Below, in pieces: positions 562-22,172 of a stretch of 25,888 nt of DNA (its first letter is position 1; every line of letters starts with the position of its first letter). The translations under genes were made by a program, and so were the position numbers. Under the pieces are notes generated by a model. The model did not search any database and was not told where the DNA came from. It saw only the letters and a program-made list of their open reading frames with translations. Origin of the DNA: a virus; the IMG/VR virus record IMGVR_UViG_3300032118_000052, positions 1-25,888 of that record; one strand, written 5' to 3'.

Positions 562-2469
562 TCAGACGCCCGGGTCCTCATCTTCCTGGAAGACCTCTTC
601 ATGAACGGGCCCAGCGGCCGTCTCGGCCTTCTCGGCGGCCTTGATCTTCTTCGGCCGCCCGCGTTTCTTCTTTGCGGCCGTCTGCCCCTTCTCGGGTTGG
701 TCGACGGGGCAACCGGTCTTGGTACACGTAGTCAGCGTGCATGCCTGGCAATCGCTTGGGCAAGTCTCGCTCTTTTCGTCCTTCGCCTGGTCCTCCTCCG
801 CCGCCATCGCCAGCTTCGCCAGCTCGTACTCCGCCTGGGCGTCGAAGCCCAGCACTGGCCCGACGATCTCCAGGGTCTCCCGTGTGTTCTCCGCAAAGTG
901 CAGCTTGTGCATCATGTCCGTCCAGAACCATTCCGCGACGCACAGGATCGGCGGGTCGGGATATTTCTTGATAGCCTTGCCCACCGCGGAGAGCAGCTTC
1001 TCTCGCTCCCTTCCCCACGGATTGTCGTGGTCGAAAAAGAGCTGCAAGAGCAGGATCACGTCGGCACTGGGGGCCGGCTCGTTCAGCATGCGTTCCTGGA
1101 AGACATCGGCGACCCGGTCCCACCGCTGGATCTCCTTGTCCTGTTCGATCTCCGCCGCCGTCGGCTCGTGGGGCTTCGTTGGACCGCTCCGCGACGAGCC
1201 GTACTCCTTCTGCGCCTTGATCTTCACCCACTTGACTGATCCCTTGCCCCGCCCCGCGACGACGATCCCGGGCACCGCCCCCTTGGCCCCTTCTTTCACG
1301 ACCTCGAACCGGTCCGCCGTCACGAGCTCCTGGCCGAAGACCCGCTTCATCCGCTGGATGGCCGCCTCATACTTCTGTCGCTTCGGCCAGTCGGTCTCGA
1401 CCTCGATCGTCGAGATCGGGACAGGCTTCACCGGAAGGCAGGCCGCGCCGTGCTTCTCCGCGTACGCGTGATCGGCGGCCTGTTTGACGAGCTCGTACGC
1501 CTGCTTTTCCTGCCGCAGAGACTTGCGCTCCCAGCACTTCGGATCGAGGCATCGGACCGCGTCCGCAGCGTCCGCCTCGACGTCCGGGTCCTGCCACAGG
1601 AGCTGCGAGATCGCATCTGTTCTTTTCGGGCAGTCTGCGCAGACCTTGGCCCAATCGAACGACGCCTTGGCCAGAAACAGTTTCTCCGTGACGAGCCAAT
1701 TCGCGACGTCGTCCGCCGAGGCGTTGTGCGGATAGAACCGATAGTCCTTCCTAATTTTGTTCAGCCAGTGCTCCTGCAGGCTCGCCGGCAGCCGGGCGAT
1801 ATGGACCCAGTGTGCTGCGGTCCAATGCGAATAATCACGATGGCGGCCTTTCTCGCCAGCCTCCATCGCCTCGGCCTTCCACCCCGGGATCAGGTTCCGC
1901 TCGATCTGCGCGTGGGCGAGCACCCAATGCTGCGTCTTGCCGAGCTTGGAGGCGACGGCCTTCGTATCCTGGCCGTACTTGTCCAGCCACGTGGCCGCCA
2001 CATGGCCTTCCTCCAAAGGCGTCAGGTCCTCGTGCAGGTTCGCCATCGCGACGATGTCGTACGCCAGATCATCCGGAAGCTTCCCGACGTTGCGCACGGG
2101 CACTTGGGTGAGCCCGCACTCGCAGGCCGCCGCGAATCGCCGCTCCCCGCTGAGGATCTGGAGGAATCGGACGCCCAGCGCCTCGCGGAATGGCGTCTTC
2201 TCGTCGACGTGTTCCCGCACGATCAGCGCTTCCAGGACGCCGTTGGCCCGAACGCTCTTGGCCAGATCGATATATTTCTGCGTCTTCACATTGACGACCC
2301 TGTTATCCGGATGCCTGACCAGACGGTCCACGGACCAGAGCTCGATCTTGAGGGCATTGACCATCACCATCTCCGCCGTCGGGTGGGCAATCGTGATGCC
2401 CTTGAGATCGACCCCCGTCTTTGCCTCGGGGACCGTTTCGGTCGTCTTGCTCTTTCGTTTCGCTGCCAT
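562..2469 (-). CDS. ParB-like partition/nuclease-domain protein
   Basis: A 635-aa protein starting at the ATG at 2467-2469, which follows AGGAGACGACG. A longer reading from 2499 lacks this signal. Residues about 40-125 form a ParB/sulfiredoxin-like N-terminal domain with the SGERR motif (107-111). Residues 144-154 carry ANLHEDLTPLEE, the second ParB signature. A helix-turn-helix region follows (about 155-190). The middle has a Cys cluster (CADCPK and CLDPKCWE), the C-terminus has another (CPSDCQACTLTTC), and near the end is an AT-hook-like RGRPKK. ParB proteins bind centromere-like sites and slide on DNA as CTP-dependent clamps. In phages they serve plasmid-like partition or regulation. No ParA is seen in the window. 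The gene sits between a truncated and an intact copy of the same 5' gene segment, which suggests it was inserted. A perfect palindrome lies just upstream. Confidence 0.85.
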   Translation of the reverse strand: MAAKRKSKTTETVPEAKTGVDLKGITIAHPTAEMVMVNALKIELWSVDRLVRHPDNRVVNVKTQKYIDLAKSVRANGVLEALIVREHVDEKTPFREALGVRFLQILSGERRFAAACECGLTQVPVRNVGKLPDDLAYDIVAMANLHEDLTPLEEGHVAATWLDKYGQDTKAVASKLGKTQHWVLAHAQIERNLIPGWKAEAMEAGEKGRHRDYSHWTAAHWVHIARLPASLQEHWLNKIRKDYRFYPHNASADDVANWLVTEKLFLAKASFDWAKVCADCPKRTDAISQLLWQDPDVEADAADAVRCLDPKCWERKSLRQEKQAYELVKQAADHAYAEKHGAACLPVKPVPISTIEVETDWPKRQKYEAAIQRMKRVFGQELVTADRFEVVKEGAKGAVPGIVVAGRGKGSVKWVKIKAQKEYGSSRSGPTKPHEPTAAEIEQDKEIQRWDRVADVFQERMLNEPAPSADVILLLQLFFDHDNPWGREREKLLSAVGKAIKKYPDPPILCVAEWFWTDMMHKLHFAENTRETLEIVGPVLGFDAQAEYELAKLAMAAEEDQAKDEKSETCPSDCQACTLTTCTKTGCPVDQPEKGQTAAKKKRGRPKKIKAAEKAETAAGPVHEEVFQEDEDPGV

Positions 2470-2484
2470 CGTCGTCTCCTGTTG

Positions 2485-2504
2485 GGGCGATGCATGCATC
2501 GCCC
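2485..2504. promoter_or_regulatory. Perfect 20-bp palindrome upstream of parB
   Basis: The sequence GGGCGATGCA followed by its exact reverse complement lies 16-35 bases before the parB start codon. It could be a ParB-binding (parS-like) site or operator. It could also be a dispersed REP-like palindrome, because its flanks (GTTG on one side, GTAC on the other) are partly symmetric too. No second copy is seen in this window. Confidence 0.55.
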
Positions 2505-2556
2505 GTACTCATTTGCCTGCCGCCTGCTGGCTTAGCTCGCGACGGCCTTCGTATTA

Positions 2557-2763
2557 TTATCCATCGAACAGCGGGATATACGGCGGATTCGCGGTGTCGT
2601 GCTTCCACACCGCCCAAGGGCCTCTCGCGTTCACCACTGCCAGGAATGGCGATGGCGACGCCAGCGAGTCGTACCGCTGATCTGGATTCGCCGGCCACGG
2701 GAACCGCCGATGCTTCACGTCCACCACGCCCGCCGCCGGGGCGACCTTTGCCGATTGTGCCAT
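2557..2763 (-). pseudogene. Truncated duplicate of the winged-helix gene 5' end
   Basis: This 68-codon reading frame begins MAQSAKVAPA. It is identical to the first 65 residues of the gene at 1-515 apart from T2A and R3Q, then ends in three unrelated residues (FDG) and a stop. It lacks the whole winged-helix part. The near-identical DNA indicates a recent duplication that left a 5' fragment upstream of parB. It may still be translated as a short peptide, since the start region is intact, but no function is evident. Confidence 0.85.
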
Positions 2764-2767
2764 CCAT
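2568..2767. repeat. 200-bp duplication, copy 2
   Basis: Partner of 320-519. Similarity fades beyond 2767 into type A repeat DNA. Confidence 0.95.
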
Positions 2768-2775
2768 ATGCCTGC

Positions 2776-2813
2776 GTATTTACGATCTGCGATTTACGAT
2801 TTTGCATTTGCAA
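2776..2813. repeat. Type A 7-bp-period repeat
   Basis: Degenerate ATTTACG units lie between the zinc-ribbon gene and the truncated duplicate. Confidence 0.75.
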
Positions 2814-3074
2814 TCACGCCGCGCCATTGAAGTCCACGGATTCCCGGCTGCCGTCTGCCTTGCGAATCTTCCAGGTCCCGCGCCACCCCTTTCTCAGCAG
2901 GTGCCCGAACAGCCGCTCGGTGCACTGTTCGCAGAACCAATAGACGACGCCGGCGTTGCCGCCAACGTCAACGGCCGTGAGTATCTCATGGAGCTCGAAG
3001 GGTTGCCCACACTCGCAACAGGGCTTCCACGTGCACTCGACCTCCGTCGCGACGATCCGCCGATGGAGTTTCAT
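2814..3074 (-). CDS. Small zinc-ribbon protein
   Basis: An 86-aa protein. I place the start at the ATG at 3072-3074 because AGGAGG lies 9 bases before it. A longer frame from the GTG at 3134 is possible but has weaker spacing. Two CxxC pairs (CCECGQ near residue 19 and FCEQC near residue 48) suggest one four-Cys zinc ribbon. A Trp/Lys/Arg-rich tail (GWRGTWKIRKADGSRE) may contact nucleic acid. The gene follows another Cys-rich small protein in the same direction. I do not recognise a named family. Small zinc ribbons are common in phage early regions. Confidence 0.75.
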   Translation of the reverse strand: MKLHRRIVATEVECTWKPCCECGQPFELHEILTAVDVGGNAGVVYWFCEQCTERLFGHLLRKGWRGTWKIRKADGSRESVDFNGAA

Positions 3075-3120
3075 CCGAGGGCCTCCTGGGTCAGGCTCAC
3101 TTCGCGGCCCCATGATCTGT

Positions 3121-3558
3121 TTATGGATTTTCACGGCGCTGCTCTCCCTCCATTCGCTCCATGGCGAGTTCTTCCTCCGTCACCGGGTTCGTGGCGGTCG
3201 ATTTCAGCCGCGTCGGGAACGGCAGATCCCAGTGGGCGGCGATCGCGGCCCAGTCGATCTCCTCGAATCGGGCGTCCGTCCCGGCCATCCGGCAGATTTC
3301 GAAGAACTGCCGCTGAATGTGCGGCAACGCCAGCCCCTTGGGCCCGGATCTCGCCAAAATCAGGTTCGCCGGGTACAGATGCCGCAGTTGATCGTGCACC
3401 GCGCAGTTGACGCACAGGCCTTTCGGCTTCGCACTTCGCTTGAGCATCCTCGCCCCCGACCCGGGCACCGGATCGACCTTGCACGGACGCCCACACCGGC
3501 CGCAGGAGCACCCCTGCCCGGAACCCGCAAACGCGAACGCCGCCTGTTTCTTCGGCAT
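3121..3558 (-). CDS. Conserved-looking phage protein with Cys motifs
   Basis: A 145-aa protein starting at the ATG at 3556-3558 (MPKKQAAF). The frame is open to 3603, but the extra codons are repeat DNA (NRKSGILDRKS). A metal-site candidate lies near residues 17-25 (CSCGRCGRPC) with a second Cys pair in GLCVNCAVHD. The later text (LRHLYPANLILARSGPKGLALPHIQRQF, then HWDLPFPTRLKSTATNP) resembles a hypothetical phage protein family I recall from GC-rich phages, with no known function. The start region has only a weak GGA. It lies 14 bases after the cytosine methylase and was probably co-transcribed with it. Confidence 0.75.
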   Translation of the reverse strand: MPKKQAAFAFAGSGQGCSCGRCGRPCKVDPVPGSGARMLKRSAKPKGLCVNCAVHDQLRHLYPANLILARSGPKGLALPHIQRQFFEICRMAGTDARFEEIDWAAIAAHWDLPFPTRLKSTATNPVTEEELAMERMEGEQRRENP

Positions 3559-3561
3559 GGT

Positions 3562-3596
3562 CGATTTCCGATCTAAGATTCCTGATTTACGATTCC
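3562..3596. repeat. Type A repeat forming the 3' end of the cytosine methylase gene
   Basis: The repeat runs across the methylase stop. The last codons (IVNQES) and the TAG stop come from repeat sequence. Confidence 0.75.
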
Positions 3597-4832
3597 AAGA
3601 CACGCCTTTATGAACTCCGCCGCGAGGATGGGCACTATGGCATTCCCGAACCCGCGGAGCGTCCCGACCCGGCTCTTGCCCGCAAGGGGGCCGCCAGAAT
3701 CCAACTCATAGGCAGACCCATCAACCATCGGGAATGTTCCGGGCTCAATGCGCCTCGGGACGAACCCTTTGCCGGCGGCCCGCTCGTCACACCAGACGAC
3801 GCCGAAGTCGCTCCAAGGACCTGCTGGGATATTTCGCCGCGCCAACTCGATCCCTTTCTGTTCTTGTGGGCACTGCTGTTCGGCGTGGCCCACGCCACCA
3901 TCCTCGGCAACCCGCTGTGACTCGCAGGCGAGTTCCTTCCGTCCCGGACCGTCAGTGTTTCCCAGGTCGCTAGCGCCGCCTGGGCCCCGAGATCGACTTG
4001 TCGTTTTCTTCCGTCCGCACCGTAATTCGAGACGTTGCCTGTCCGTCCCCCGTTCGGCACGTTCGGCGTCGCCCACACCGCCAGACTGACCGCATCCGTC
4101 AGCGTGTTGCCCTTGTGGATCCCGGTCGGCGGGACCGTCTTGCGGTTCGCCGTGCTGTTTCGGGTGCTCCGGCTGTCGCACTCGCCGCCTGGACTTGGCC
4201 AGGCCAGTGTCTGGACTAACACGCTCAGTGACGTGATCTGTGTTCGGTTGGCGCCAGTCCCGTCCCTCTGTCCCATTCTCCGTTTCGTCGCAAGATGGGC
4301 CTCCGGCGTCTTGTTGTCGTCGTTCGCTACCGGCGTGGGCCATCCACCACAAACGTTGCCGCCTGTGGGGCGAGCCGACGCTTGCAGCCGGCAGATCACT
4401 CGTCCCGACGGCATAACCGAGCTCCTCCAGGTCAAGAGACACTCCGTCGAGCCATCGAGGTCCATCACCGCTCGCAGTCTGCTCGCCAAAGATCGTGACA
4501 GGGCGGCACTCGCTGACGAGACGGTAAAATTCAGGCCAGAGGTGCCGTTCATCTTTCTCGCCGCCGCGCTTGCCGGCACACGAAAAGGGTTGGCAGGGGC
4601 AAGAGCCTGTCCAAACAGGCCGGTCGGCGGGCCATCCCGCAAGCCGCAGGGCATAATCCCAGCCCCCGATCCCCGCGAACAGATGAACCCTGCCGTATCC
4701 CGAGAGGTCTTTCGCCTCGACTTCAACGATGCTCCGCTCATCCACGTCCCCTTCCATGATCAGCCCCGCCGCGATCAGATTCCGCAGCCACTGAGCCGCG
4801 TAAGCCTCGTTCTCGTTGTAATATGCCTTCAT
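3573..4832 (-). CDS. DNA (cytosine-5) methyltransferase, phage type
   Basis: A 419-aa protein starting MKAYYNENEAYAAQWLRNLI. It transfers methyl from S-adenosylmethionine to C5 of cytosine. Motif I is HLFAGIGGWDYAL (about 50-62). Motif IV is GSCPCQPFS (77-84) with Cys80 as nucleophile. A GEQTASG segment stands where the usual ENV motif lies. Motif VIII is PHRRQRLWW, and motif X near the end is RGFGNAIVP. The region between VIII and X is hydrophilic, rich in Arg/Gly/Glu, and overlaps a second open frame (3635-4654). The start overlaps the stop of a 30-aa ORF (TGATG). No restriction enzyme is seen, so this is probably a solitary methylase protecting phage DNA or altering its recognition. Target specificity cannot be read from sequence. 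Confidence 0.92.
   Translation of the reverse strand: MKAYYNENEAYAAQWLRNLIAAGLIMEGDVDERSIVEVEAKDLSGYGRVHLFAGIGGWDYALRLAGWPADRPVWTGSCPCQPFSCAGKRGGEKDERHLWPEFYRLVSECRPVTIFGEQTASGDGPRWLDGVSLDLEELGYAVGTSDLPAASVGSPHRRQRLWWMAHAGSERRQQDAGGPSCDETENGTEGRDWRQPNTDHVTERVSPDTGLAKSRRRVRQPEHPKQHGEPQDGPADRDPQGQHADGCGQSGGVGDAERAERGTDRQRLELRCGRKKTTSRSRGPGGASDLGNTDGPGRKELACESQRVAEDGGVGHAEQQCPQEQKGIELARRNIPAGPWSDFGVVWCDERAAGKGFVPRRIEPGTFPMVDGSAYELDSGGPLAGKSRVGTLRGFGNAIVPILAAEFIKACLGIVNQES
3635..4654 (-). CDS. Overlapping alternative-frame ORF inside the methylase gene
   Basis: A 339-codon frame nested in the cytosine methylase gene, starting at the ATG at 4652-4654 (MPCGLRDGPP). It is open upstream to 4741. A GGGGGCTGGGATT precedes the ATG. 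The product is Ser/Thr/Trp-rich with segments that read like a real family: DGSTECLLTWRSSVMPSG, ICRLQASARPT, GGWPTPVANDDNKTPEAH, and RGALSPEHSRWLMGLP near the end. From memory, proteins with WPTPTA and LNPxxxxWLMGxP segments occur as separate phage genes near C5 methylases. The alternative is that conservation of the methylase DNA produces look-alike peptides in the +1 frame. Which of the two is true cannot be settled from one sequence. Confidence 0.45.
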   Translation of the reverse strand: MPCGLRDGPPTGLFGQALAPANPFRVPASAAARKMNGTSGLNFTVSSASAALSRSLASRLRAVMDLDGSTECLLTWRSSVMPSGRVICRLQASARPTGGNVCGGWPTPVANDDNKTPEAHLATKRRMGQRDGTGANRTQITSLSVLVQTLAWPSPGGECDSRSTRNSTANRKTVPPTGIHKGNTLTDAVSLAVWATPNVPNGGRTGNVSNYGADGRKRQVDLGAQAALATWETLTVRDGRNSPASHSGLPRMVAWATPNSSAHKNRKGSSWRGEISQQVLGATSASSGVTSGPPAKGSSRGALSPEHSRWLMGLPMSWILAAPLRARAGSGRSAGSGMP

Positions 4833-4929: not shown

Positions 4930-5394
4930 TCACCGACTCGCTGGTGCCGCGGCGGGCAGCAGGGCCTTGAATCCATGCTCTTTGATGCTCTGGAAATAGG
5001 TCTGCTGACGGCCGTGATCGTAGACGTAAGGCAGGAAGACCTCCATCAGCTCCACCTGCGACAACTCGATCATCGCCATCTGGGCATCGATCCAGTCCGC
5101 CAGGATCTTCCACGCCGTTCGCCGGGCCTGGTCGCCGATCTTTCGCAGGGTCTCCGGCCTGGGGCGCCGCATATTCGCCCGCAGAGTCCGCTCCACCGCC
5201 GCGACTTGGCACGGTAGACGGAACGGCATATCCACCTCCCCGATCCGAACGATGAAACAGATCGCATCGACTGTGCCCTCCGGCGAGTATATCTTGAGGA
5301 TCTGCGTCGCCTTATGCCCGGCGAGCTTGGCCTCGATGTAACTGATCGATCTATCCGCCGAAATCCCGCTCGTGTAATTCTTCAATGGCATCAT
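4930..5394 (-). CDS. Conserved phage protein of unknown function
   Basis: A 154-aa protein with a good GGAGAG six bases before ATGATG, so either Met may be used. The text MPLKNYTSGISADRSISYIEAKLAG, the PFRLPC segment near residue 60, the long helix QARRTAWKILADWIDAQMAMIELSQVELMEVFLPY (about 88-122) and the ending FKALLPA match a hypothetical phage family I recall across unrelated tailed phages. No catalytic motif is visible. The alternating beta-rich N-half and helical C-half suggest a compact soluble protein. It sits in an early-gene run before the methylase. Confidence 0.8.
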   Translation of the reverse strand: MMPLKNYTSGISADRSISYIEAKLAGHKATQILKIYSPEGTVDAICFIVRIGEVDMPFRLPCQVAAVERTLRANMRRPRPETLRKIGDQARRTAWKILADWIDAQMAMIELSQVELMEVFLPYVYDHGRQQTYFQSIKEHGFKALLPAAAPASR

Positions 5395-6396: not shown

Positions 6397-6986
6397 TTCG
6401 GCAGATAGGCCCTGCCGATGATCCGCTCGAAACAATTGCCTGTGACGTCGGCCCAGATCATGGCTTTTCCCTGAATGCGGCCGGCGTGCAGGCGAGGCTT
6501 ACCATCGGGGCGACGCACGCAGTATTTGCGGGCGAACAATGGCATCCAGTCATATAGTGATTCGGCGAATAGACCCGGCCGGACCGGGAACAATCGCATG
6601 ATCGGCTCCCGCAATCGCATCTCCCCCGAGTAGTCCCGAAGATCGCGCACCTGAATGCTGATCCCACGCCCGACCAGGTACGTCCACCACCCGTAATAGG
6701 CCACGCCGTCCACGCCGGGGCAGTGGAATACCCAAACGTAGAGCGCCCGCCGTTCCGTGCGTCCGCACCCTTCCCGTCGCCACCTCAAGGACTTCGCTTG
6801 ACGTTCCCGCTTTTCTCGACCAAGATCCTGCCATGTCGTCACTCTCGGCTTCGCGCCCGGGTGGTCGATCTCCACCACCGCCGCATCCGGACCGAACCGG
6901 TCCCAGAACGATTCCGGTATGATCGAGGGACCCTTGCCCCGGTCCCGTTTTCGCGAGTTGACGTAGATCGCGCCCGTGGCTTTCAC
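6378..6986 (-). CDS. Hypothetical protein, 202 aa
   Basis: I choose the GTG at 6984-6986. It overlaps the stop of the preceding DUF5131 gene as GTGA and has AAAGGG about 9 bases upstream. The frame is open to an ATG at 7022. The protein is rich in Arg and Trp (TWQDLGREKRERQAKSLRWRREGCG, then YVWVFHCPGVDGVAYYGWWTYLVGRG). It ends in PNPSCSS, which is encoded by a type B repeat. No family is recognised. Translational coupling to the DUF5131 gene suggests a joint role or at least joint regulation. Confidence 0.65.
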   Translation of the reverse strand: MKATGAIYVNSRKRDRGKGPSIIPESFWDRFGPDAAVVEIDHPGAKPRVTTWQDLGREKRERQAKSLRWRREGCGRTERRALYVWVFHCPGVDGVAYYGWWTYLVGRGISIQVRDLRDYSGEMRLREPIMRLFPVRPGLFAESLYDWMPLFARKYCVRRPDGKPRLHAGRIQGKAMIWADVTGNCFERIIGRAYLPNPSCSS

Positions 6987-7942
6987 AATCTCAACCCTTT
7001 CGGCTTTTCCTGAATCCGGCACTCCGGCGGGAACTCCGCCGCGTCCTCCGTCACCCGCACCCGACTGCCTGTGGGCGGGACTCTCGGACCTTGCTTCATC
7101 CAGGCCGGCACGCCCGCATCACGGCAGTCCGTGACAATCCCCTGGGCCTCCTCCCACCAGTTCACCGGGTCAATTCCTGTCCACCGGCCCGCCCTGCCGC
7201 CCGCCAGTTTCTCGCACCCCACGACGACCCAGTCGAGCAGCTCATCGAGCGGCACAGCGTCGGTATCCTCGCCGCACTTGGGGCATGGATATGCCTGACC
7301 ATGCTTTGGATCTCCATCATCCTCGCCCCACCAATAGCAGGCGGGACAGACGTTGTAACCCCCCGCGATGAACGGAGTGACAGCATCGGAGACCCGTGAG
7401 ATCAACGGTTCGAGACTCACGCCTCGCATCGCCGCCGGAATCCGCCGCAACGTCTCGATGCGAGAGATGTATTCCGGCCCCTCGACACTGACCATCAGAA
7501 TGACGTGCGGGAAATCGTCGGGCCAGACCGGTATGCGGCGCTGCTGATACCATTCGATGAACTCCGCCATCCGCCCCGGCTCTTTCGTCAGCACCATGAA
7601 CCGATGCTGCCGGCAATTGCACATCACATCGAATGCCCGGGCGATGAACTCGAAGGGAACCCGCTCATCGAACAGGTCGCTCTTGCTGTTGACGAAGACG
7701 AAGGCCGGCTTGCGCCAGTGCAGAGGCCGAGACAGATTGCACACCAGGCAATTGACTTTCGAGGTAAAAAGCCAATCCCCCCCGGTGCATGCCACTTGGT
7801 CCTCGTAACCAGACAACCCTCTGCCCGCCAGCCGGTGGACCGTCCGGCAGGCCCAGCAGTTGTCGCAGCCCGGCGACCGCTTGCGGCAGCCGATGGTCAG
7901 ATCCCACGTCCGATCGCAATACGGAATGCCCGTTTCAGCCAT
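6983..7942 (-). CDS. Phage Gp37/Gp68 (DUF5131) family protein
   Basis: A 319-aa protein starting MAETGIPYCDRTWDLTIGC. The N-terminal Cys pattern C19...SPGC26DNC29WA is the signature of the Gp37/Gp68 family, a predicted TIM-barrel group distantly like radical-SAM enzymes. Its activity is not established as far as I know. Further family-like segments are FVNSKSDLFDERVPFEF, HRFMVLTKEPGRM, VSVEGPEY, RGVSLEPLI, DWVVVGCEKLAGGRAG and GVPAWMKQGP. Between them is a zinc-ribbon-like insert (CPACYWW...CPKCGED, about 218-243). The length is usual for the family. The gene is preceded by the duplicated 55-bp leader and is coupled downstream to the 202-aa gene. Confidence 0.88.
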   Translation of the reverse strand: MAETGIPYCDRTWDLTIGCRKRSPGCDNCWACRTVHRLAGRGLSGYEDQVACTGGDWLFTSKVNCLVCNLSRPLHWRKPAFVFVNSKSDLFDERVPFEFIARAFDVMCNCRQHRFMVLTKEPGRMAEFIEWYQQRRIPVWPDDFPHVILMVSVEGPEYISRIETLRRIPAAMRGVSLEPLISRVSDAVTPFIAGGYNVCPACYWWGEDDGDPKHGQAYPCPKCGEDTDAVPLDELLDWVVVGCEKLAGGRAGRWTGIDPVNWWEEAQGIVTDCRDAGVPAWMKQGPRVPPTGSRVRVTEDAAEFPPECRIQEKPKGLRL

Positions 7943-18960: not shown

Positions 18961-21354
18961 TTACAAATCATCCAAGTACCCTTCTCGGACTGCCGTCATT
19001 TCCTCCCCAGTCAGGGCGTAATCAAAGACAGCCACCTCATCAAGATTGCCGTCAAAATAAATGGAGCCATACTCCTCCGGCGGAAGAAGACCCGCAGCAC
19101 CCAACCTGAATTGACAATCATATACACCCGTATGAACTGCCGGCGTAAACCCGGATTGTGAAGTCGTTCCGGAAGCAATCACGCTGGCCGTGTTATCATC
19201 CCACAAAACGTAACTTGAATCCTTCGTTGTCGAGTTGAATGCAAAACAGAGATGATACCATCGCCCCGTATATAAGTTGGCAATGATCTCCATGCCACGT
19301 CCATACGTTTCTCCTTCGTAGTCTGGAGTACCAATATCATCCGCGTACGAAAAAGGAGTCTGGCATCCTATTGTATATTCAGAGCCATCCCCATTGGGAT
19401 AGTAACTTATTTCGAAACTACCTTTTGCGAACTGGTGTCCCTCTTGATCAATCCACACGCTACTATCCAACAGATCCGCAAACTCATAGTCACCGTCGTT
19501 CCATGCCGGCAAGCTATTGCATTTGAACCAGATGGACACGGTTGCATCCTTATTGGATGTGCCAGCTTTGAACGGGAAATCGGATGACATTTGAGAATCG
19601 GCGCGGCTCATATACGCTGACGAACTGCGAGCGAATAGTCCGGAGTACAATCCTTGCTTGTGGTTCGTTCCGTCTGCCGTCACGTTGGCATTCGTGAGCG
19701 TATTGCCGCCTATCGAGTCCGTCGTCAATGCCCCACTCTCCATCCTATACAGGGCGACCGGAGCAACTAAGGAGAAGGAGGCGTACGGCCCGTACTCATA
19801 CGCGGCTCCGGTCGAGAAGAAGATCTCCGAGTAGCCTTCATTATCGAGAATGCGGGACTCGGTCGTCTCCGTGGTGGCCGGGGCCCCGGCCGCGGGCGGC
19901 GTCCCGTAGGACGTGTAGGCCTGGCCGAAGACGTCCTCGATCACCTCGATGATGCACTCGCCCTCGGTCAGACTGCCGCGGTCGATCGTGACCACGCGAA
20001 CGATCATACTGGCGATGTTCAACTCGGGGTAGGCGATCTCGATCACGCTGGTCTCGTGCAGATGGGCCATCGTCCGCAAGGCGTGCAGGGTCAGCCGCTT
20101 GGGCATTGCGGAGATCTGCTGCTGGATTCGGGCGGCGATCGTATTGGCCAAATCGCCGTCGCAGACGAAGGCACTGTAATCGAGCTCCTGGACTATCGGG
20201 TGACCGCCCTGCCGGGCCAGTAGGGCGATATCGTCTGCCACCGCCGGGCGGCTCTGATCCGTGGTCCGGTCGTGCCACAGCACCACGGTTCGCGATGGAA
20301 TCGTGCCGGGCGAGCTGGTCGGCATGGACTCGACCCAGAAGTCGCTCTCATCGAAGATATCCAGCGGGAGGTCGTAATCCTGGCGTATGAGTCCGATCTC
20401 GAATTTGCCCGTGGCCGGATCCGTGTAGACCTTGCCGTCTATGATCTGCTCGACCTGGTGGATCATGTCGTCGATGCCGTCCGGGGCACTGTCCCAGGCG
20501 TACGATAGGCCCATGCCCTCGTCATAGCAGGTCTCGGCGGCCGTCGCGAAGGTGTCCCCGATCAAGCCGGGGTCCTTGCCCATGCCGATGATCGGACAGG
20601 TGATCCACTCGTAGATCATGTGGATCGCGTTGAAGTCGGCGTACGCACCGACCGGGGCCTTGGCGATGTACCACATCGCGTCGCCATCGACGAGCTTCTT
20701 GGTCGCTTTGACCAGGAACGACAAGGGCTTGAGCTGGGGAACGCTGCCCATATATACGTCAGCCAGAATGACGCCGGTGAATCCGCGATACGCGGGCTGG
20801 TCCGCGCCGAGCCAGGCCTCGAGGTAGCTGTCCAGGGTCTGGGTGATGCCGCCGTATTGGATGTGCACGACGCCGGAAACGCCGCCTTCACGTTCGTACC
20901 CGCCGAAGCAGTACGGGGCCGCGATCGTCGCCGTAGTGACGCCATCCGCCGCCCGGATCGTCGGATCGTTCAATACGGGCCAGACGCAGGTATCCGCGAC
21001 CCAGATTTGAAGAACGCCGTCGACGTTCGCCTGGCAGATGCCCATGTGCAGACTGAGATTGTAATAGAGCGCGATGGATGCCCCGTGGTTCTTCTCCTTC
21101 TCCTCGACGTGATAATTGAAGATGGGACTGATCGCATTCGGTCCGCGATACCGTCGGCAGCCGCGGATCACGGGCAGCGGCCGGCCCTCCGTGGCGGTCG
21201 GAAGATTGAATGCGGATGAGCCGGCGGGATTGCCCTTTGGTTTCTGGCGTAGAAGATATGCAATGCCAGTTGAAACCGCCGTGGCAATAAGTGTCCAGAC
21301 GAGCCATACCACCAAAGCCGGCCAAACGGCGAGAATGCATGGAGCCATCATCAT
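18961..21354 (-). CDS. Tail tip protein (Phage-tail_3 type) with C-terminal LamG domain
   Basis: About 797 aa from ATG 21352-21354, which overlaps the previous stop (TGATG) and follows GGGGGAT. Two further ATGs follow directly. The frame is open 80 codons further upstream, but that part is a shadow of the previous gene. A hydrophobic stretch (about 5-32) precedes LPTATEGRPLPVIRGCRRYRGP, the usual start of J-like tail proteins. The central region (MIYEWITCPIIGMGKDPGLI, GIDDMIHQVEQIIDGKVYTD, then PATGKFEIGLIRQDYD) fits the Phage-tail_3 family of baseplate/tail tip proteins. Residues about 560-790 form a LamG/concanavalin-like domain (VALYRMESGALTTDSIGGNT ... NLDEVAVFDYALTGEEMTAV), probably glycan-binding for host recognition. 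DNA coding for this domain is visibly richer in AT, which suggests acquisition by transfer. Confidence 0.8.
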   Translation of the reverse strand: MMMAPCILAVWPALVVWLVWTLIATAVSTGIAYLLRQKPKGNPAGSSAFNLPTATEGRPLPVIRGCRRYRGPNAISPIFNYHVEEKEKNHGASIALYYNLSLHMGICQANVDGVLQIWVADTCVWPVLNDPTIRAADGVTTATIAAPYCFGGYEREGGVSGVVHIQYGGITQTLDSYLEAWLGADQPAYRGFTGVILADVYMGSVPQLKPLSFLVKATKKLVDGDAMWYIAKAPVGAYADFNAIHMIYEWITCPIIGMGKDPGLIGDTFATAAETCYDEGMGLSYAWDSAPDGIDDMIHQVEQIIDGKVYTDPATGKFEIGLIRQDYDLPLDIFDESDFWVESMPTSSPGTIPSRTVVLWHDRTTDQSRPAVADDIALLARQGGHPIVQELDYSAFVCDGDLANTIAARIQQQISAMPKRLTLHALRTMAHLHETSVIEIAYPELNIASMIVRVVTIDRGSLTEGECIIEVIEDVFGQAYTSYGTPPAAGAPATTETTESRILDNEGYSEIFFSTGAAYEYGPYASFSLVAPVALYRMESGALTTDSIGGNTLTNANVTADGTNHKQGLYSGLFARSSSAYMSRADSQMSSDFPFKAGTSNKDATVSIWFKCNSLPAWNDGDYEFADLLDSSVWIDQEGHQFAKGSFEISYYPNGDGSEYTIGCQTPFSYADDIGTPDYEGETYGRGMEIIANLYTGRWYHLCFAFNSTTKDSSYVLWDDNTASVIASGTTSQSGFTPAVHTGVYDCQFRLGAAGLLPPEEYGSIYFDGNLDEVAVFDYALTGEEMTAVREGYLDDL

Positions 21355-22172
21355 CACGCGATCCCCCACATCGAGAATGGGTCGGTGTCCGGGATGTTCT
21401 TCTGGCCGCGATAGTTGTCGCCGTTGCCGAACTTCACATCGCAGGTGCTGAAGAGGTGATCGCAGCCAGGATAGACATCGAAGGTCTGATCTGCGGCCAC
21501 ACCCGGCGCCGAGGGCGAGATCGTGACGTCCTGGCCGATGTGCCGAATGATTTTGCGGCGGCGGCCATTGACCACGATATCGCCGCCGGTCCACCAGCCG
21601 TCGGTCTGATATCCGAACGCCATGGCCGTGAGCACGTTGCCGCTGACGGCCGATAGCACGCCGCTCACCTTATAGTCGGCCCGGACCACGCCGCACAGCA
21701 CGGGAGTATAGAGCTCGACTCCGCACTGGCGGCCGTAGCGAGTGACCAGGCCGGCTCGCTGCATCGCCGCCGTAACCGGATCGATCACGATCTCGGACCA
21801 GCGGTCGCCCCGGCGGCTCTGCTGCCGGAAGACCACGTCGAGAACGTCACCTTTGAAAATCGCTTGGACGTCCGAGCCGTGGCCCTTGTACCGCGCGTAG
21901 TGGATGATGTCCTCGGGGGCGGCGACGGTGTACTGCCAGGCGAACGGATTACGCCAATCCATCTTGACGATCGTGCGGCTCTTGAGTGCGGTCGTCCCCT
22001 CCTCGATCCGTCCGCCGGTGCAATAGCACTTGGTGTAGTCATTGCCGCCGTAACTCACGTCGGCGGGCGCGTCCGCGTATCGCCACCAGGTGCTCGTCGC
22101 GCCGAGTTGGAATGCGTGCAGCTCGAACGGGACGCCCTCGGCCAGCGAGGCCTCTTTCGCCGCGAAACTCAT
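21354..22172 (-). CDS. Phage BR0599-family tail assembly protein (DUF2163 group)
   Basis: A 272-aa protein starting MSFAAKEASLAEGVPFELHA at the ATG at 22170-22172, with GGGAGGG in front. The frame extends five codons further. The N-terminal half (LYAFxxG-like, TRTIVKMDWRNPFA region) matches DUF2163. The C-terminal signature GCDHLFSTCDVKFGNGDNYRGQKNIPDTDPF is characteristic of the BR0599 family, where clustered Cys (as in lambda L tail-tip proteins) probably hold a metal cluster. It lies between the tail hub and tail tip genes, the usual order in such phages and in gene transfer agents. The stop overlaps the next start. Confidence 0.88.
   Translation of the reverse strand: MSFAAKEASLAEGVPFELHAFQLGATSTWWRYADAPADVSYGGNDYTKCYCTGGRIEEGTTALKSRTIVKMDWRNPFAWQYTVAAPEDIIHYARYKGHGSDVQAIFKGDVLDVVFRQQSRRGDRWSEIVIDPVTAAMQRAGLVTRYGRQCGVELYTPVLCGVVRADYKVSGVLSAVSGNVLTAMAFGYQTDGWWTGGDIVVNGRRRKIIRHIGQDVTISPSAPGVAADQTFDVYPGCDHLFSTCDVKFGNGDNYRGQKNIPDTDPFSMWGIA

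Follow-up and report, generated by a model that had tools for sequence, protein, structure and literature searches.

Does a phage cytosine methylase gene encode one protein or two, and if there are two, do they belong to the same enzyme? The question is raised by a gene in IMG/VR virus record IMGVR_UViG_3300032118_000052, positions 1 to 25,888; this whole stretch of 25,888 nucleotides is the window analysed here. A first-pass annotation had reported a second open frame of 339 codons (3635-4654), nested in the methylase gene and on the same strand, and had inferred that the DNA may code in two frames or that one protein family may have arisen from the other's +1 frame. The nesting and the shared strand held, in that both frames lie on the minus strand with the second shifted by +1, and the 339 codons are part of a longer frame of 368 codons (4741-3635). 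Our analysis supports the inference: the nested +1 frame is real and coding, with translation of its product, beta, inferred from selection in the absence of expression data. We further propose, as the likely reading, that the product of the locus is a split cytosine-C5 DNA methyltransferase, with the gene for beta nested in that for the catalytic subunit, alpha; translation, assembly and activity of this enzyme are all inferred.

Alpha, a C5-methyltransferase, is assigned to 3573-4832 (minus strand). The listed methylase ORF spans 4976-3573, and rather than its upstream limit at 4976 we prefer, by alignment, the ATG at 4832, which yields an N-terminus (MKAYYNENEAYA..) in agreement with that of homologues. 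Alpha matches the phrog_363 (E 1.8e-69) and PF00145 (E 6.1e-16) profiles, and the C5-methyltransferase motifs I, IV, VI, VIII and X are all present and in order on the minus strand. Motif I (HLFAGIGG, 4662-4685) is largely invariant in alignments; motif IV (GSCPCQPFS, with the catalytic PCQ, 4581-4607) is supported by alignment and by the PF00145 match; and at the motif VI position (4479-4487) the usual ENV is replaced by GEQ, which is invariant in all aligned alpha sequences. Alignment also places motif VIII (SPHRRQR, 4353-4373) and motif X (GFGNAIVP, 3630-3653), the latter read in the methylase frame from DNA that it shares with the last codons of beta. Neither a motif IX nor a recognition domain can be recognised in alpha between motifs VIII and X.

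Beta (368 aa; ATG at 4741 to the stop ending at 3635, minus strand) is proposed to be the subunit responsible for recognition and motif IX. Its N-terminal part includes a helix and hairpin (ALSRSLASRLRA..GSTECLLTWRSSVMPSGRVICRLQAS, 4358-4528, minus strand), predicted by AlphaFold2, which lies over alpha motifs VI-VIII in a region where both frames are constrained. An array of recurring WPTP-type modules follows (3749-4342, minus strand), over which the alpha frame is an unconserved hydrophilic linker, and after the array comes a motif IX-like tail (LSPEHSRWLMGLP, 3710-3748, minus strand; RRIEPGTFPMVDG in the alpha frame) containing a near-invariant LNP..WLMG. The segments WPTPVAND, DGSTECLLTW and RGALSPEHSRWLMGLP, which the first-pass annotation had quoted, are all present in the +1 translation, and it was also right to place the hydrophilic linker between motifs VIII and X within the overlap. 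The search of this translation against viral proteins that it had proposed matches phrog_1008 over residues 27-348 (E 1.5e-22), in addition to a weaker match to phrog_31772 (E 2.5e-5). That the recognition region and motif IX of the enzyme likely reside in the +1 product is an inference that goes beyond the earlier claim.

In the window alone, the open +1 frame is only mildly unlikely to have arisen by chance (when the methylase codons are shuffled synonymously, the mean is 2.3 stops, with P = 0.039 for none), and it is the comparative evidence that is decisive. Between motif VIII and WLMG, 65 loci, many of them recovered using methylase motifs only, contain no +1 stops where 118 would be expected if the methylase alone coded, and no methylase-frame stops where 261 would be expected if beta alone coded. 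Among 79 script-recognised methylase ORFs, 68 remain free of +1 stops between motifs VIII and X and 11 contain a single one, with 0.2-4.6 expected in each; this stretch extends beyond the end of beta, which bears on the 11 ORFs with a stop. The +2 frame of the same 79 ORFs usually contains several stops between the same motifs.

The two frames are also under selection in different parts of the gene. We compared nonsynonymous and synonymous change, relative to neutral expectation, in aligned in-phase blocks of 67 distinct loci (homologous genes from viral contigs and phages) in all three frames, given here in the order methylase/+1/+2. Before motif IV the values are 0.08/2.95/2.64; from motif IV to VIII both the methylase and +1 frames are constrained (0.21/0.86/2.55); in the linker modules constraint is confined to the +1 frame (2.65/0.13/2.41); in the LNP..WLMG tail both frames are again constrained (0.68/0.35/1.42); and in the motif X region, from after WLMG to the end, purifying selection is in the methylase frame (0.08/2.57/2.79). 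A further 64 loci taken from contigs of bacterial genomes, some of them shared with the viral-contig set, give the same order for the modules (1.06/0.25/1.63) and the tail (0.66/0.27/1.61). These are pairwise substitution counts without phylogenetic independence; nevertheless, the reversal of the selected frame along one gene serves as its own control. In comparisons of the window's own linker, differences at methylase codon positions 1, 2 and 3 number 190, 68 and 52, so that most fall at third positions of the +1 frame. Since the module stretch is constrained in beta only, the alpha linker is probably a by-product: beta sequence read in the wrong frame.

The first-pass annotation had held that its reading would be refuted by a lack of homologues outside methylase genes together with selection in the methylase frame only. 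Neither is the case. Homologues outside the overlap are found in separate gp82-type sequences, in a fusion and in single-ORF Gordonia enzymes, all described below, and the codon-position comparison of homologous loci that it had suggested places selection in the linker in the +1 frame rather than in that of the methylase.

Where does beta begin? Stops in the +1 frame occur at the expected number at the methylase N-terminus, fall to 7 against 24 expected at VTPDDL, and number 1 against about 115 expected from VTPDDL to motif VIII. The depletion sets in shortly before motif I, at the position of +1 start codons that have Shine-Dalgarno-like sequences. In every locus inspected for starts, a +1 start codon follows the last +1 stop and precedes motif I, often with an upstream AGGAG or GGAG. 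Across 97 loci in which the GGAG and its prospective ATG are both synonymous choices in the methylase frame, the two occur together (42/3/23/29, p=2e-7). In the window, a possible Shine-Dalgarno sequence, AAGGGG (4748-4753, minus strand), lies 6 nt 5' of the ATG at 4741; inspection also finds a GGAG (4735-4732, minus strand) before a TTG at 4726 as an alternative. Amino-acid constraint in the +1 frame first becomes visible between motifs IV and VI, and none is seen in the first ~50 residues of beta, which overlap the stretch between motifs I and IV. Beta is more likely to arise by internal initiation than by frameshifting, which is not excluded.

Relatives of the locus show the same parts in other arrangements. 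Using tblastn we recovered phage records with the same +1 frame, and of 317 fetched loci (which include some contigs fetched twice) 296 have the nested +1 layout, 8 have adjacent, barely overlapping frames in the +1 relation, 7 have one ORF, 5 have alpha only and 1 is of another kind; L105 was classed as +2. Beta without alpha was found in none of the 317. In Arthrobacter phage PrincessTrina, gp81 contains motifs I-VIII and gp82, which lies +1 to gp81 with a 38 nt overlap and mostly beyond it, contains LPTP modules, LNPAFVEWMMGL and motif X (LGNGV) and matches phrog_1008 at 2.7e-102. A search with gp82 gave matches in 568 phage records, 434 of them Mycobacterium. Other actinophage pairs divide the enzyme in the same way, into I-VIII and, in a separate gene downstream, LPTP modules plus IX and X: Stasia gp76/gp75, Kingsley gp70/71, SchoolBus gp6/gp5 and Eesa gp39/40. 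Gordonia phage Leonard gp5 has motifs I-VIII, modules, IX and X in a single frame, and one contig, L041, encodes a short-linker alpha followed in frame by beta as a C-terminal fusion. The equivalent of the beta tail directly precedes motif X in single-frame relatives, including one without modules (L046), where WVEWMMGL occupies this position. Two further loci, L030 and L043, have motif X in the +1 (beta) frame and a methylase frame that stops early, a layout intermediate between the nested and the actinophage ones.

The modules also vary in place. Near-identical modules occur at differing positions of beta, with, for example, a cluster of ten members found at positions 1-3 and another of nine at 2, 3, 4 and 7, as would be expected of exchangeable units. 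Clustering was by single linkage and merged most modules into one group, and only the small clusters count as evidence of shuffling.

Structural evidence on beta is limited. The AlphaFold2 model has a mean pLDDT of 56 and leaves the modules unresolved, with local confidence at the WLMG helices and over residues 81-120 (pLDDT 69-88; helix 77-96, strands 102-109 and 115-122). The model was too poor for Foldseek to recognise a fold, and neither Pfam and NCBIfam searches with beta nor a PDB sequence search with a beta profile gave matches. When a profile of the IX-X region was compared with the PDB, C5 methyltransferases came top and in register, with weak scores (E 0.22-1.5) that are not significant alone. 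For a single-ORF relative, L231, AlphaFold2 gives a confident catalytic part and C-terminal segment, again with unresolved modules, and Foldseek matches the model to M.HhaI.

The finding on which our model rests is that the conserved C5-methyltransferase motifs are divided between two coding frames of one locus. We propose that alpha would fold the catalytic large domain from motifs I-VIII, a long peptide without detectable selection, and motif X. Beta, initiated independently from an internal start codon shortly before motif I, would provide a helix-hairpin N-terminus, the WPTP-type modules and the motif IX-like LNP....WLMGxP, together forming the small DNA-recognising domain, and would bind alpha to supply target recognition; in M.HhaI-type enzymes it is the small domain that contacts the target (domain roles, PMC3404938). 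Three elements of this model are inferred: production of both proteins, their assembly into one enzyme, and DNA reading by the modules. Because the order of the parts in the DNA equals that of a single-frame enzyme, we infer, without a tree, a fused ancestor that would have been split by frame changes after motif VIII and before motif X. The module stretch of beta would then be old and the alpha linker new, while the beta N-terminus would be newly overprinted on alpha motifs; this polarity, too, is inferred without a tree. A bolder reading holds that, across a large family of phage enzymes, the catalytic and DNA-recognition domains of a single enzyme occupy two frames through overprinting in both directions and that the WPTP modules are exchangeable specificity units. 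We lean slightly against accepting it as it stands; if it is true, recombination between phages would re-target the enzyme.

Two-polypeptide C5 methyltransferases have precedents. In M.AquI the larger subunit contains I-VIII and the smaller IX and X, and in M.EcoHK31I the large subunit contains I-VIII and X and the small polypeptide IX (PMC3404938); EcoHK31I has been termed naturally split (PMC3439449). The M.EcoHK31I small-subunit frame also lies inside the large-subunit gene, and the enzyme is known as a restriction-modification methylase. The M.AquI split matches the actinophage pairs, whereas the window keeps motif X in alpha and has beta fully nested. M.EcoHK31I (YGGCCR) resembles the window in having I-VIII and X in one polypeptide and IX in the other, but its recognition domain is predicted in the large subunit (PMC3404938), while in the window the VIII-IX region is conserved in beta and not in alpha, in a phage gene with WPTP-type modules. 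This comparison was made without the EcoHK31I sequence, and homology is not established. The Mycobacterium, Arthrobacter and Gordonia phage methylases (phrog_363 plus phrog_1008) share with the window the alpha and beta families, their linear order and a module, but their genes are separate or fused and barely nested if at all, with motif X in beta or in the single chain. In mycobacteriophage methylases, the ShiLan-domain HNH endonuclease (PMC11855218) is likewise a second protein encoded out of frame, but it is a mobile endonuclease insert, while beta is a conserved part across its family. Plasmid matches (Citrobacter, Klebsiella aerogenes, Rhizobium) were considered as an EcoHK31I-like restriction locus and set aside, no restriction gene being annotated alongside them in the plasmid table.

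Several other explanations of the nested frame were considered. It could be a shadow frame in GC-rich DNA whose +1 similarity passively echoes methylase conservation, and the window alone, with its P of 0.039, would not dismiss this; but the linker is kept in the +1 and not the methylase frame, substitutions are concentrated at beta third positions, and homologues exist outside the overlap, so that the codon-position reversal contradicts this explanation and leaves it all but excluded. A gene overprinted de novo, without outside homologues, is ruled out by PrincessTrina gp82 and the L041 fusion. If beta is a genuine protein, it might still be a separate one (for example DNA-binding or anti-restriction) that shares DNA with the enzyme without being part of it. 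There is no biochemical link between beta and alpha and the beta modules have no recognised fold, both of which leave room for this reading; we nonetheless consider it unlikely, as beta is never without alpha in the 317 loci, no motif IX can be recognised in alpha itself, and in related enzymes these modules and the tail either form part of one chain, between VIII and X, or carry motif X.

A further alternative concerns how beta is made: a programmed +1 frameshift before the first WPTP module could fuse the alpha N-terminus to beta, alongside unshifted alpha. The DNA order, identical to that in single-frame enzymes, and the +1-frame motif X of L030 and L043 favour this explanation. Against it, depletion of +1 stops reaches far upstream of the modules, to candidate starts with Shine-Dalgarno-like sequences, and the betas of actinophages have gene annotations of their own, each with a separate start. 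We regard frameshifting as improbable, and its ranking below internal initiation does not rest on a systematic search for a shift site.

The split-enzyme reading bears on how such genes are recorded. The same nested arrangement occurs in hundreds of related phage and prophage genes, usually with only one frame recorded, and we found no description of a nested frame in phage methylases in the literature searched. Both frames are annotated in Xanthomonas phages PhiXhv-5 and -28, only the +1 frame in phiKX1, Cy-LDV1 and FoX4, and the methylase frame in epsilon15; in the E. coli genome rows listed, the match falls on a DNA cytosine methyltransferase, and beta cannot be recognised as a second product. 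The families phrog_363 and phrog_1008 are listed apart under the shared name of DNA methyltransferase; in this group they correspond to two frames of one stretch of DNA, and their members here are probably two subunits of one enzyme. With one frame annotated, alpha may appear inactive when expressed by itself, and it may be difficult to attribute methylation specificities. That the family includes nested, adjacent and fused forms also makes the origin of long overlapping genes testable through a measurable enzyme activity.

Other genes in the window, all on the minus strand, encode a ~645 aa protein with a ParB_N domain (562-2499, E 6e-8), a DUF5131 protein (6983-7942, E 6e-49) and a ~877 aa protein with a ConA-like lectin domain (18961-21594; Laminin_G_3, E 9e-7). 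Among the related loci, gp9.1 of phiBT1 (L210) has been noted as a possibly inactive methylase; it is followed by an unannotated +1 frame with LPTP modules, a motif IX-like segment and motif X, and it is possible that the missing half simply lacks annotation. In a Gordonia phage contig (L236; methylase gene 1501-3201) there is an in-frame insert after motif VI that, read one base out of frame, gives YVAGLIDGEGCV.., like a LAGLIDADG homing endonuclease, and further on, out of frame, gives SEPYSETLPTSGMTRNG, which looks like a beta N-terminus; a near-identical insert is present in L234.
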